Assembly (NCBI RefSeq): GCF_026226615.1
Contig: NZ_JAJAPB010000001.1
Span: forward strand, 1-64,000
Source of the DNA: Geovibrio ferrireducens
GTDB lineage: Bacteria > Chrysiogenota > Deferribacteres > Deferribacterales > Geovibrionaceae
Direction: 5' to 3'
Length of the DNA: 64,000 bases
The notes beneath the pieces are model-generated. The model had not been told where the DNA came from. It saw nothing but the letters and a program-made list of their open reading frames with translations, and made no database searches. Each line of letters starts with the position of its first letter. Position 1 is the stretch's first letter. Positions 23,766-41,372 of the stretch are shown here, one piece after another. The position numbers and the translations under genes were made by a program.

Positions 23766-23807
23766 TGTGCCTCGTTTATATGCCGAACTCCTTAAGCAGT
23801 TCGTCAA
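23766..23807. repeat. Extra copy of the cheZ 3' end (42-bp direct repeat)
   Basis: Identical to 23904-23945 over 42 bp. It carries the last codons of cheZ, the stop and 10 nt beyond, but lies outside the gene, separated from it by a 96-bp hairpin-rich element. It looks like a long target-site duplication. Confidence 0.88.
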
Positions 23808-23903
23808 ACATGATAATGCCAAATTCGCCATCCATGGGAATTTGACATACACGCTCGCGCCTTGCCAAGCAAGGCTTCGCTACGCACGGCGACGGCACAT
23901 TCA
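23808..23903. mobile_element. Repeat element E1 inserted at the cheZ 3' end
   Basis: 96 bp made of hairpins. Its complement carries CGTGCGTAGCGAAG, a GCCTTGC/GCAAGGC stem and CGCGAGCGTGT, the core shared with E2 and E3. Next to it is a CAAATTC/GAATTTG stem whose loop has CCATGGATGG. It is flanked by 42-bp direct repeats of the cheZ end. No ORF or transposase is present, so it would move in trans if mobile. Confidence 0.65.
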
Positions 23904-23945
23904 TGTGCCTCGTTTATATGCCGAACTCCTTAAGCAGTTCGTCAA
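23904..23945. repeat. Genuine cheZ 3' end (42-bp direct repeat)
   Basis: The in-frame copy of the 42-bp sequence repeated at 23766-23807. It includes the true cheZ stop (23914-23916) and 10 nt after it. Confidence 0.88.
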
Positions 23946-24552
23946 CGAGGTTCTGATTTTCCATTATACCGTCTTTTGATTTGAGTTTCTCAAGGGTTTC
24001 AACATCAATTTTTCTATCTTTAACCCCAAGCATAAGCACGAGGTGTGTAAGTCTTTCCTGAAGGTCGTAAATAATCTTGATCAGCTTATCAATTTTCTGT
24101 TTGGTTATATCCTGAAATTCGAGGGAGGCTATTATATCGAAGCTGACATCCTGCCCGGCCAGCCCTTTATCGCGCAGGCGGTCAAGAACACCGTTTATCT
24201 TGCTGAAGTCCCCGCTCTCGGCATATTTTCTGAGAGAAGAGAGGTTTTCCTTTATATCGTCTATGTTGAAGTTGATTTTATCCACACATTCAAGAACGTT
24301 TTCGGAAGCTTCCTTAGAGTCTTTGATTACGCTGTGAAGAACGCTCTCGAAACCGGGCAGATCTTCATAGGCATCCTCAACAGCACTGCTGACTGTTTTA
24401 AGCTTGTTGACAGCCTTGCTGAAATATTCTGCGATGTGAAAGAGTTCGCTCTCAGGGTTGACATCGATTCCTACAACGTCATAGTTTCCGTTACTGATGT
24501 TTCTTGCAATATCAAGAAGCTCATTAACGTCCTTAAAATGGTTCATAATCAC
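23914..24552 (-). CDS. cheZ: Chemotaxis phosphatase CheZ
   Basis: 212 residues, nearly all helical. The catalytic glutamine is Q147 in LEFQDITKQKIDKLI, with the acidic partner D148, the CheZ signature. The C-terminal peptide NLVDELLKEFGI is the CheY-binding tail. It removes the phosphate from CheY-P. The start is GTG at 24552 (overlapping the cheY stop) or ATG at 24546. Its 3' end is duplicated downstream by a repeat insertion that leaves the protein intact. Confidence 0.88.
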   Translation of the reverse strand: MIMNHFKDVNELLDIARNISNGNYDVVGIDVNPESELFHIAEYFSKAVNKLKTVSSAVEDAYEDLPGFESVLHSVIKDSKEASENVLECVDKINFNIDDIKENLSSLRKYAESGDFSKINGVLDRLRDKGLAGQDVSFDIIASLEFQDITKQKIDKLIKIIYDLQERLTHLVLMLGVKDRKIDVETLEKLKSKDGIMENQNLVDELLKEFGI

Positions 24553-24987: not shown

Positions 24988-25910
24988 TCCTTTAATTTCT
25001 TCAATCTCTCTGCCCTGCTTACGATTTCCTTTATGCGGAAACCAAAGTAGCCGTCAACTATGACCACCTCTCCGCGGGCTATTACCTTATTGTTAACAAC
25101 GAGTTCAACCGGTTCATCCGCAGATTCGTCAAGCTCCACAATGTTTCCGGAACCCATAGTAAGTATATCCTTAAGAAACATCCTTGTGGAGCCCATTTTA
25201 ACACTTACCGGAACATCAATATCCAGCAGCATGTCCATGTTCTGCACGCCCGATACGGAGGATGAGCCCATGGAGCCTATCGGATCGCCCATTCTGTCGT
25301 CCGGATCATCCGGAAAAGTGAACGCTGTGGCGAAATCCGGTTCATCATCAAGGGAAGCACCGGAGCTTCCGCTCTTAGAGGAAAACAGCGAAAGAAGATC
25401 CTCGTCCATAAAAAAGCGCATTGCAGTTTTGCGATCCCCTATGGTGAACTTCATATCGGCTATAAAATAGCTCTCAGACTGAAAGAGAGCGGAGTTCTCA
25501 TTCTTGATTACATCGTCAACCTTGAAGCTGACCTTTTTGCCGAGCCTTTCCTCCAAGGGAACGCTGAGTGAGGAGAGAACCTGCTGGCAAAGCTCCTTTA
25601 CAGCATCCGGGTCATCCTCACCAAGCTCATCTGTGCCTTCCGAATCCATCATGAGCATCAGCGCGGCGAGCATTGTTATATCCTTTGTATAAAAGAATAA
25701 GCCTGCATCAAAGCCGGACTTCTCCTCAGTTACGGATACCACGGTCTGCCCCTCGTACCCGTACATAAGCTCATCCGCATTACCGGCATAAGCATCGGAC
25801 ATGGAAATACTTATCTCTTTATCAAACATGCTGCCGAAGGTAGAGGCAAACATATCTGTTATTACTCCAGTAAAAGCGGCATACCTGCCTTTATCCAGTT
25901 CTTTCCTCAT
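24984..25910 (-). CDS. fliN: Flagellar switch protein FliN/FliY
   Basis: 308 residues, longer than a plain FliN. The N-terminal about 190 residues have a CheC/CheX-like look (TGVITDMFASTFGSMFDKEISISMSDAY, GLFFYTKDITMLAALMLMM, DAVKELCQQVLSSLSVPL), as in FliY. An acidic, serine-rich linker follows. The last 80 residues form the SpoA domain (MLLDIDVPVSVKMGSTRMFLKDILTMGSGNIVELDESADEPVELVVNNKVIARGEVVIV). It forms the C-ring with FliM. Whether the N-terminal part dephosphorylates CheY-P is unclear, because a cheZ is also present. It overlaps fliM by 20 nt. Confidence 0.9.
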   Translation of the reverse strand: MRKELDKGRYAAFTGVITDMFASTFGSMFDKEISISMSDAYAGNADELMYGYEGQTVVSVTEEKSGFDAGLFFYTKDITMLAALMLMMDSEGTDELGEDDPDAVKELCQQVLSSLSVPLEERLGKKVSFKVDDVIKNENSALFQSESYFIADMKFTIGDRKTAMRFFMDEDLLSLFSSKSGSSGASLDDEPDFATAFTFPDDPDDRMGDPIGSMGSSSVSGVQNMDMLLDIDVPVSVKMGSTRMFLKDILTMGSGNIVELDESADEPVELVVNNKVIARGEVVIVDGYFGFRIKEIVSRAERLKKLKD

Positions 25911-26901
25911 TACCTTCTTCCGTTATTATTTCATTTATTCTGACAGCCTTACGCACACCAAGCGTTCCTATGTGGCCGAAAAATTTCTTTTTGTTATTAA
26001 TATGTATGTTTGAAGGAGTGCCCGCTTTCGCGTCCATCATAACAAGGTCGCCTTCCTGAAGATTCATTATCTCTTCTATCGTCAGCGTAGTGTGCCCCAG
26101 AGAAGCGCGGAAGGGAATCCTTATCTCCTCCAGCATATCAAGGATATGCTTTTCATTGTCCCCGAACCTGCCCTTTTTCGCACCGATCAGCCAGTCCTGA
26201 CTGCTGATTTTGCCGAGAACGGGCTCAAGAACTATGGCAGGAATACACAGATTCATCATCCCCGTGGCCTCGCCGAACTTTATCTCAAACACCACAAGGA
26301 TCACAACCTCGTTCTGAGCAACAATCTGAATGATATGAGGGCTGTTCTCGCTCAGTTCCTTCTTGAAACGTATATTCTGGACAATCTGCCGCCATACCTC
26401 CTCAAGATCCTTGAGAATCAGGCTTATTATCCCCTCGATTATATGCTGCTCAAGGCTGGTAAGCTCACGGGTCTGGAACAGAGGCTGGCCGGGGCCGCCC
26501 AAAAGCTTGTCAACTATGGGAAACACCAGCGAAGGGTTTATCTCCAGAACCGCGTTCCCCTCCATGGGTATCATACTTATAATGTTGAAACTGGTGGGGT
26601 CAGGCAGAGACATAAGAAACTCGCCGTATGTCATCTGATCCACGCTCACCAGAGTTATGTCTGTGATGGTCCTCAAAAAGTTTGACAGAGAAGACGAGAA
26701 GTTGCGCGCAAACTTATCATGAAGGTTGCGGATCGAACGAAGCTGCTCCTTTGAAACCCTGTCCGGCCTGCGGAAATCGTAAACCGAAATCTTCTTGGGC
26801 ACAAAGTCAAGCTGCTGTATCGAATTGTCCGATAAATCATCCTCCGTTGACACGGTGGACAATAGAGCATCAATCTCTTCCTGACTTAAAATATCTGCCA
26901 T
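25891..26901 (-). CDS. fliM: Flagellar motor switch protein FliM
   Basis: 336 residues. The N-terminal peptide MADILSQEEIDALLS is the CheY-P docking site; the middle domain contains MIPMEGNAVLEINPSLVFPIVDKLLGGPG; the C-terminal SpoA domain includes LTIEEIMNLQEGDLVMMDAKAG. It builds the C-ring with FliN and FliG. The present start lacks a strong ribosome site of its own. Its first 44 nt are repeated at 27050-27093, where a good AGGAAAGCAG precedes the ATG; the upstream copy is probably the ancestral start. Confidence 0.95.
   Translation of the reverse strand: MADILSQEEIDALLSTVSTEDDLSDNSIQQLDFVPKKISVYDFRRPDRVSKEQLRSIRNLHDKFARNFSSSLSNFLRTITDITLVSVDQMTYGEFLMSLPDPTSFNIISMIPMEGNAVLEINPSLVFPIVDKLLGGPGQPLFQTRELTSLEQHIIEGIISLILKDLEEVWRQIVQNIRFKKELSENSPHIIQIVAQNEVVILVVFEIKFGEATGMMNLCIPAIVLEPVLGKISSQDWLIGAKKGRFGDNEKHILDMLEEIRIPFRASLGHTTLTIEEIMNLQEGDLVMMDAKAGTPSNIHINNKKKFFGHIGTLGVRKAVRINEIITEEGNEERTG
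26858..26901. repeat. First 44 nt of fliM (direct repeat, in-gene copy)
   Basis: Identical to 27050-27093 over 44 bp, beginning exactly at the fliM ATG. The two copies are separated by 148 bp containing a hairpin-rich element. Confidence 0.9.
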
Positions 26902-27049
26902 ATATTAATCCGTTACTCCGTTTATAACCGTATATTGTCCACAGGCGTTCCCACGGATGGGAACACGCCGTGCGAAGCGAAGCCGCATACATGCGGCGCG
27001 AGCGTGTGCGGAAAAAAGACAGGAAGTGCTTTTTTTCCGTATCAAGACA
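26902..27049. mobile_element. Repeat element E2 inserted in the fliM 5' end
   Basis: 148 bp between 44-bp direct repeats. In order on the plus strand: a GTTCCC/GGGAAC stem with loop ACGGAT (about 26947-26964); the shared core CGCCGTGCGAAGCGAAG, CCGCAT/ATGCGG, CGCGAGCGTGTG; and a CGGAAAAAA/TTTTTTTCCG stem with loop GACAGGAAGTGC (about 27009-27039). The core matches E1 and E3. It carries no transposase. Confidence 0.68.
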
Positions 27050-27093
27050 GACAATAGAGCATCAATCTCTTCCTGACTTAAAATATCTGCCAT
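26905..27093 (-). CDS. Leader ORF: duplicated fliM start running through element E2
   Basis: 62 codons. The first 15 residues equal those of FliM, then the frame continues through the element without a stop (Arg/Ala-rich, no known domain) and ends with TAA at 26905-26907, three nt before the fliM ATG. The original ribosome site (AGGAAAGCAG) precedes its ATG. Ribosomes that finish this ORF could restart on fliM, keeping expression after the insertion. Whether the peptide matters is unknown. Confidence 0.4.
   Translation of the reverse strand: MADILSQEEIDALLSVLIRKKSTSCLFSAHARAACMRLRFARRVPIRGNACGQYTVINGVTD
27050..27093. repeat. Duplicated fliM start (direct repeat, upstream copy)
   Basis: The copy of 26858-26901 that lies next to the probable original ribosome-binding site. 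Only the flanks differ. Confidence 0.9.
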
Positions 27094-27141
27094 CTGCTTT
27101 CCTGTTTAAATATTTAAATTCCAGTTTTTGGGGAAGAGCCT

Positions 27142-27241
27142 GAGAAACACTTTTTTTTCGTTAAAAAAGGGTTTCTCGGTTTAGCTTTAAAAAAAATATT
27201 TTTCTCAAGCCAAGGGAAACTTTTTAGGAACAAAGTTTCCC
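27142..27241. terminator. Two hairpins after cheB
   Basis: One hairpin pairs GAGAAAC (27142-27148) with GTTTCTC (27171-27177) and has inner T and A tracts. The second pairs GGGAAACTTT (27214-27223) with AAAGTTTCCC (27232-27241) perfectly, loop 8 nt. They fill the gap between cheB and fliM. On the minus strand the second is followed by a long T tract around 27190, so some termination after cheB is plausible. They may also be dispersed repeats. Confidence 0.5.
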
Positions 27242-27295: not shown

Positions 27296-28384
27296 TTACC
27301 TGCAATGGAATATTATCCTGTTAAATATATCGTCAAGGGAAACAATTTCATCAGCTATTCCCGCTTCGACCACAGCGCGGGGCATTCCGTAGACTATGCT
27401 TGATTCCTCATCCTGCGCTATGACGTTTCCGCCTTTTAGTTTAAGGAGCTGGAGCCCTTTTTTGCCGTCAGCGCCCATGCCGGTCATGATGACGCCGAGG
27501 GCATCTTTTCCGGCGGCTTCCGCCACAGAGGCCGCTGTTACGTCCACGCTGGGCACATGAAGGTGTCCGCCTGCGTCTGAATTAAGCTCTGTGACGTAGT
27601 TTGCGCCTATTTTTTTTATTCTCAGGTGCTGCCCGCCTTTTGCTATGTAAACAGTGTTGGGCTCAAGTTTTTCATTCCCCTGAGATTCTATAACATTCAG
27701 CTTGCTCAGTGAGTTGAGCCTCTGCGCGAGTGACTGAGTGAAGTTCGGCGGCATGTGCTGCACAACAACTATCGGCACTCCGATGTCGCCGGGCAGTCTG
27801 GGTATAACCTTCTGGAGTGACTGGGGCCCCCCGGTGGAGGTTCCGATTATCACTATGCGCTTATGGCCGGGTTTGGAAACGGTTTTTCCTGCGGGAGCAG
27901 CAGGAGCCTGAAGTCCTCCTGACGGAGCTCCCGCAGCAGCGGGTCTTGCAAATGATGCAGGGCGCAGCCTGCGCATGAGGTTTGTTCTTCTGGCGAACTG
28001 CTTTATCTTATTGCGCAGATCGTCTTCTATATTCATAACGCCGAAGCTGGCGAATGATTTCTCTTTCGGTATGAAGTCCACCGCGCCCAGATCAAGGGCT
28101 TTCATAGTAGCTTCCGCACCCTCTGTGGTAAGGGAACTGACCATAATGACGGGCAGAGGATTCTCGCTCATTATTTTTTCAAGAGCGCTCAGTCCGTCCA
28201 TTCTGGGCATTTCAATATCGAGGGTCATTACATCGGGTTTAAGGTTTCTCGCCATTTCAACGGCATCCAGACCGTTGCGTCCCTGCCCGACTATCTCAAT
28301 CTCTGAATCCTTGGCGAGCATGGATTCAATGGCTTTTCTCATAAATGCGGAATCATCAACAATAACAACCTTGATTTTATTCAT
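27296..28384 (-). CDS. cheB: Chemoreceptor glutamate methylesterase CheB
   Basis: 362 residues. An N-terminal receiver (D56 in VMTLDIEMPRMDG) and an Ala/Pro-rich linker lead to the methylesterase domain. The catalytic serine is in GTSTGGPQSLQ, the histidine in VVQHMPPNFT and the aspartate in VIMTGMGADGKKG. It removes methyl groups added by CheR. Its start overlaps the fliA stop by 8 nt. Confidence 0.96.
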   Translation of the reverse strand: MNKIKVVIVDDSAFMRKAIESMLAKDSEIEIVGQGRNGLDAVEMARNLKPDVMTLDIEMPRMDGLSALEKIMSENPLPVIMVSSLTTEGAEATMKALDLGAVDFIPKEKSFASFGVMNIEDDLRNKIKQFARRTNLMRRLRPASFARPAAAGAPSGGLQAPAAPAGKTVSKPGHKRIVIIGTSTGGPQSLQKVIPRLPGDIGVPIVVVQHMPPNFTQSLAQRLNSLSKLNVIESQGNEKLEPNTVYIAKGGQHLRIKKIGANYVTELNSDAGGHLHVPSVDVTAASVAEAAGKDALGVIMTGMGADGKKGLQLLKLKGGNVIAQDEESSIVYGMPRAVVEAGIADEIVSLDDIFNRIIFHCR

Positions 28385-41188: not shown

Positions 41189-41196
41189 TATACATA

Positions 41197-41290
41197 CAGC
41201 CCCATGGAAGGGGCTGCGCCGTGCGGAGCGAAGGCTTGCTTTGCAAGGCGCGAGCGTGTGAGGAAACGGACAGGACGTACCGTTTTCGAA
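41197..41290. mobile_element. Repeat element E3 after mqnC
   Basis: CAGCCCC/GGGGCTG stem with loop ATGGA (41197-41216); the core CGCCGTGCGGAGCGAAG, GGCTTGC/GCAAGGC, CGCGAGCGTGTG; then a GAAACGG/CCGTTTTC stem with loop ACAGGACGTA (to about 41288). Same order as E2. No duplicated flank is visible. Confidence 0.65.
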
Positions 41291-41372
41291 CTATATAAAA
41301 CAACTTAATGTACTAATAAATACAACAGAATATCCGATAACATAATTATAAATAATTATCAAAGGTTGAGAC

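Follow-up and report, generated by a model that had tools for sequence, protein, structure and literature searches.

The start of fliM is repeated in a tandem array with a dispersed three-hairpin element in Geovibrio ferrireducens and two congeners

An unusual characteristic of fliM in Geovibrio ferrireducens is that the start of the gene is present in more than one copy, with a hairpin element involved, an observation that is supported in all three species compared here. The duplication is real, old and conserved, and it falls within a general pattern, the tandem amplification of a dispersed element together with its flank, in which a repeat family multiplies with slices of adjacent genes and the gene is not destroyed. 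The process is general and mostly known; the unusual part at fliM is that the slice holds the start codon and the CheY-binding segment. An earlier note, made from the sequence of the window (the whole 64,000-nucleotide stretch analysed here), knew of no described case of this kind. This is too broad, as clusters of REPs are known to reiterate flanking DNA of variable length in tandem (PMC3733652), but a case with a copied start codon was not found.

As summarised in Table 1, the 44-bp sequence GACAATAGAGCATCAATCTCTTCCTGACTTAAAATATCTGCCAT has two copies in the window that are 100% identical at a spacing of 192, which cannot be chance. They enclose the hairpin-rich insert of 148 bp that had been described, although this insert is not a hairpin element throughout: the modelled element covers part of it, and only the stretch listed for the element belongs to the dispersed family, the 45-nt tail being outside it. 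The number of units in the window may be underestimated. The window genome (G000) is a 46-contig draft in which a collapsed repeat could hide a second fliM unit, and six of its contigs (C6, C9, C13, C14, C18 and C26) have element copies as their first bases, so that arrays probably break or collapse in assembly.

Table 1 Features of the fliM region and further copies of the element in the window, with positions and strands.
Feature	Position	Strand	Remarks
fliM, intact, outermost copy	25891..26901	-	336 aa; Pfam FliM match
fliM start, downstream 44-bp copy	26858-26901	-	encodes MADILSQEEIDALLS, the N-terminal CheY-P-binding segment (EIDALL motif)
fliM start, upstream 44-bp copy	27050-27093	-	modelled element begins within its last 2-3 nt
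148-bp insert between the 44-bp copies	26902-27049	-	element plus 45-nt locus-specific tail
Dispersed three-hairpin element	26939-27052	-	covariance-model match, 97.7 bits
Hairpin 1, variable stem	27009..27039	-	loop ACTTCCTGT; + strand ACAGGAAGT
Hairpin 2 and conserved core ACGCTCGC-stem-TTCGCTTCGCACGGCG	26966..27005	-	
Hairpin 3, GTTCCC-ATCCGT-GGGAAC	26947..26964	-	loop on + strand is ACGGAT
45-nt tail, from hairpin 3 to fliM ATG	26902-26946	-	SD-like GGAG at 26916-26919
5′ arm GTGGACAATA of 10-bp stem around fliM start	26933..26942	-	
3′ arm TATTGTCCAC of this stem, fliM codons 13-16	26855..26864	-	duplication breakpoint inside arm
Leader ORF, 62 aa	26905-27093	-	stop TAA 26905-26907, then TAT, then fliM ATG
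SD-like AGGA, upstream (ancestral-context) start	27100..27103	-	
cheB-like gene (receiver + methylesterase), upstream neighbour	27296..28384	-	named from sequence
Second window copy of the element	23803..23918	+	at stop codon of ORF 23914-24552 (-)
Third window copy of the element	41190..41304	-	covariance-model match

The nearest named records for FliM are in the Deferribacterales (Deferri_01 at 96% identity; Seleniivibrio and Denitrovibrio at 77-79%), and we compared the window genome with two congeners, G001 and G002, at ~80-84% DNA identity, the G002 assembly being one 3.0-Mb contig. Comparison of related genomes, suggested earlier as a check, gave a divided answer: other genera are without the arrangement, having no element at fliM and in the nearest ones simply cheB, a short spacer and fliM, whereas both congeners share it. 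The array comprises one unit in G000, two in G001 (195 bp each) and two in G002 (191 bp each), and the breakpoints are identical in the three species, with the duplicated piece running from the A of the ATG to the end of TTGTC. The idea of a one-off insertion absorbed by a re-created start is therefore not supported, the arrangement being a genus-wide array of tandem units formed by amplification of element plus flank. Within a species, copies of the fliM array are identical or 1 nt apart; between species the element in the array differs by 9-16%, and the 44-bp piece differs at two synonymous sites that are common to all copies within a species. This likeness within species despite the difference between them amounts to concerted evolution of the fliM units, and element arrays stay homogenised within each species.

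The ribosome sites at the upstream fliM start in the three species (GGTAGCAA, GGTAACAA and GGAAAGCAG) look ancestral; the site before fliM in the outgroup G003 is GGGGTGTAGCAG. An SD-like site is kept at both the upstream and the downstream start in all three species, and the claim that the upstream copy has the better one is not clear-cut, as its SD is weaker and well spaced whereas the downstream SD is stronger and lies 12-13 nt away. The motif of the 45-nt tail is confined to fliM across the three genomes, and we rejected on these grounds an import of tail and SD from another gene. In the arrays of G001 and G002 (L033 and L032), the element start CTGACTTAA is the reverse complement of TTAAGTCAG inside the 44-bp piece, an inverted match of 9 bp that adjoins the junction; the element start differs in G000. 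A second inverted repeat, GAGAAACACTTTTTTTTCGTTAAAAAAGGGTTTCTC, is located at 27140-27180 between cheB and the upstream fliM start, and hairpins like it, of different sequence, occupy the corresponding position in both congeners.

The element family has a 115-position consensus with three hairpins. BLAST gives 50, 64 and 103 matches in G000, G001 and G002, and a covariance model finds 84 matches in 824 kb of syntenic stretches from the three genomes; extrapolated copy numbers are about 200-500 per genome (~200 in G000 and G001, ~480 in G002). In an alignment of 61 copies, each from a different locus, 92.9% of cells are paired and 24 of the 28 base pairs have two-sided changes, with a covariation score of 0.672 vs. 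at most 0.143 when the partners are slid. The stems vary, whereas the core ACGCTCGC...TTCGCTTCGCACGGCG and the TCC loops are nearly invariant. Searches of Rfam gave no relevant match in the window region or at 20 array loci, and none to CsrB, RsmX or RsmZ at E <= 1, and a known RNA family was therefore rejected as the identity of the element. Two other repeats often adjoin it (for example at G000:C1:76080-76420 and 224940-225480; L203 and L211): a longer related one, with a hairpin-1-like start followed by CACTCGCAGCCTGCG...GGTACGCACTCCACGGGCACATCC, and one of the form CATTGCGAAC...GTGAAGCAATCTC. In G002, an FMN riboswitch (Rfam RF00050, 120 bits; L171:2677-2817, - strand) lies near an element array.

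About half of the sampled element clusters (55 of 107) hold at least two copies, and the array period is locus-specific because each unit carries a piece of the local flank; the loci were chosen by element matches and their genes called by a simple hexamer script, so these array fractions are not genome-wide rates. Apart from fliM, 13 arrays have a repeated flank that includes the final 9-60 nt of an adjacent gene. It is always the 3′ end of the gene that is duplicated there, with the intact gene as the outermost copy, and fliM is the sole case of a duplicated start codon among the sampled arrays. Orthologues without the element show that the flank in the arrays is native gene sequence. At locus L164, for example, G000 has no element, G001 has a single element with no duplication of the flank and G002 has F(EF)3. 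The first copy in 11 arrays departs from the others in hairpin 1 but not in hairpin 2, a pattern that suggests recombination or a template switch at the boundary between these hairpins. Another mosaic array, at L180:1004-1554, is a 184-bp tandem repeat that ends inside hairpin 1 of the element. Inverted complementarity at the breakpoints was rejected as a general mechanism: among 11 arrays examined, fliM alone stands out and the ten others have nothing similar.

Taken as a whole, the explanation that we consider probable is an old tandem array driven by the element, in which the leader ORF is mainly a by-product. The fliM 5′ region is a small array of the form F-(E-U-F)n-fliM, with F standing for the first 44 bp of fliM, E for the 115-nt dispersed repeat and U for the 45-nt tail with its SD-like site. 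The array would have originated in a single event before the split of the genus, when recombination or a template switch joined E-U and a second F after fliM codon 15 and left the ancestral ribosome site before the upstream F copy. The unit count would have changed since, to one in the window genome and two in both congeners, with recombination between the repeats keeping the units alike within each species. The same process would have duplicated the ends of other genes adjoining the element, and the genes would tolerate it by virtue of an undamaged outermost copy. The last ATG is the most likely start of FliM synthesis; translation of the leader may occur, and its termination near the fliM start may modulate fliM. 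Some observations count against parts of this explanation. F comes first in the fliM array but E in most arrays, which leaves room for a single insertion with a long target duplication. The kept SD-like sites and a leader end no more than 20 nt from an ATG are not required of a pure by-product, and the stem between the tail and codons 13-16, with its compensatory pair, suggests selection at the fliM locus.

The main alternative to a by-product is coupling or attenuation, in which ribosomes loaded at the upstream start would cross the element and end near the fliM ATG, so that fliM translation depends on the leader and its level is set by the tail stem and the element hairpins. We regard this as possible, if clearly the lesser prospect. 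The upstream ATG does open the 62-codon frame reported before, through the element and to within 3 nt of the fliM ATG, and the distance from leader stop to next ATG is 3, 3 and 20 nt in the three species (20 nt in G002), close enough to resemble translationally coupled leader ORFs; unlike those, the fliM leader is a duplicated gene start with an unconserved tail. The SD-like sites kept at the upstream start in all three species also speak for coupling, as does the beginning of the tail, which is complementary to fliM codons 13-16 over 10-11 bp in all three species, with one compensatory pair between species (T-A vs. C-G); only 5 of 3000 shuffled tails reach the same complementarity. This complementarity suggests a locus-specific structure around the fliM start, although the predicted probability of the stem varies from 0.01 to 0.9 with the context folded, and the predictions disagree. 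Against coupling, the downstream start is preceded by an SD-like site of its own, and the leader tail lacks conservation and differs in reading frame among the three species. Moreover, the element is often open anyway: among 95 distinct copies, the three frames on the leader strand are open in 49%, 41% and 16%, and at least one is open in 75%. Given the common open frames and the unconserved tail, the leader ORF is probably an incidental by-product. A conserved leader protein was rejected, as a Pfam search of the ORF gave no match and the frame of the tail shifts between species. Translational regulation at fliM is nonetheless possible, since the kept start sites, the near leader stop and the conserved stem would permit it, and in any event the array is a defined natural case of repeated gene starts in which to consider translation reinitiation.

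A simple mobile-element insertion that duplicated 44 bp of target site, with later unequal crossing-over between the F copies, appears unlikely. It would account for F on both outer sides at fliM and at L164 of G002, and for the ancestral ribosome site that precedes the upstream F copy. However, most arrays start with E and have no F to the left, no duplicated F accompanies the single E of the L164 orthologue in G001, and the 11 arrays whose first copy differs in hairpin 1 and not in hairpin 2 also argue against it. As regards a MITE, which would call for terminal inverted repeats and a regular target-site duplication, no long inverted repeat spans the insert, F-E-F is found at few loci and the single E in G001 has no duplication beside it. 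Y1 transposase (RAYT, PF01797), expected with REPs of the GTAG class, is absent from G000, G001 and G002 in searches that detected the controls, which speaks against a simple insertion and led us to reject a RAYT/IS200-driven REP. REPs and BIMEs (GTAG and CGTC super-families) are high-copy palindromes, mostly extragenic and near the 3′ ends of ORFs (PMC3733652, PMC2817692). The element resembles them in its many dispersed, mostly extragenic palindromic copies and in its tandem clusters with flanking DNA of variable length. It differs in being a 115-nt three-hairpin unit vs. 20-40 bp, and its consensus has no unpaired GTAG or CGTC tag. The element is therefore REP/BIME-like in copy number, position and clustering with flank, and is not filed as a member in view of the triple hairpin and the absence of tag and Y1 transposase. 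Rickettsia palindromic elements (RPE) and REPs can also sit inside ORFs (PMC3733652); at fliM a palindromic repeat has likewise become part of a reading frame, with the difference that it lies between a duplicated start and an intact gene and not inside a protein. Literature searches on repeats in Deferribacteres returned nothing direct.

Least of all do we expect functional decoys, small leader proteins that titrate CheY-P through the FliM segment MADILSQEEIDALLS: the EIDALL segment of FliM is a conserved CheY-P-binding motif (PMC9126983) that any translated leader would carry, as the duplicated 44 bp encode it, identically in all copies of the three species, but homogenisation accounts for this identity, the breakpoint reflects recombination rather than domain need, and the leader tails differ.

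The element family merits attention of its own, in particular for its loops on the opposite strand. Those of hairpin 1 read ACAGGATGT, ACAGGAAGT or ACAGGACGT and those of hairpin 3 are mostly ANGGAN, with GGA in hairpin 1 of 59 and hairpin 3 of 52 of the 61 aligned copies. The sites described for CsrA comprise CAGGA(U/A/C)G, RUACARGGAUGU and ANGGAN hexaloops, and CsrA-binding RNAs of the CsrB/RsmZ type have the GGA motif in hairpin loops (PMC7652899). The element is like these in its opposite-strand loops, CAGGA(U/A/C)G in hairpin 1 and ANGGAN in hairpin 3, and unlike them in being dispersed and mainly intercistronic or in 3′ UTRs, not a single sRNA, and in having no Rfam match. Between genes of the same direction, the GGA strand is sense at 39 loci vs. 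antisense at 15 (binomial p = 0.0015), and sense elements frequently lie directly at the upstream gene's stop codon; counts of G-U vs. A-C wobbles (11 vs. 13) do not decide the functional strand. One csrA was found in the genome, beside a FliW-like ORF, and a FliW-CsrA system is likely present, judging from gene content. At this locus (L246), the 77-aa csrA adjoins the 159-aa FliW-like ORF and a flagellin-like ORF.

Together, these features suggest a tentative and rather doubtful reading in which the family would be genome-wide, Deferribacterales-wide predicted CsrA-binding units, each with a core hairpin between two GGA-loop hairpins, acting through the GGA strand in 3′ UTRs and between cistrons, with the fliM leaders and their CheY-P-binding peptide as possible decoys. 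CsrA recognition would keep the loops while the stems diverge, and tandem amplification, including that at fliM, would change the dose of CsrA sites. At fliM itself, among the minority cases, the GGA loops are antisense to the operon, and CsrA would therefore not act on fliM mRNA through them. Direct reports on CsrA together with REPs were not found in the literature. If the reading is true, it would provide a function for a REP-like repeat and a dispersed family of CsrA sites outside Gammaproteobacteria, in genomes that carry a FliW-CsrA pair. Four more genera, Mucispirillum among them, have divergent relatives of the element that differ in stems and cores and share the loops, a recurrence that is biased in that the search model itself favours GGA loops. 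Such relatives in other Deferribacterales genera (L247-L275; G003, G007, G011, G023 and G050) are also tandem, and their plan on one strand is a GGA-loop hairpin, a core hairpin containing CGCT and a second GGA-loop hairpin. In G007, most of them directly precede the SD of the following gene and have the GGA strand in sense orientation.
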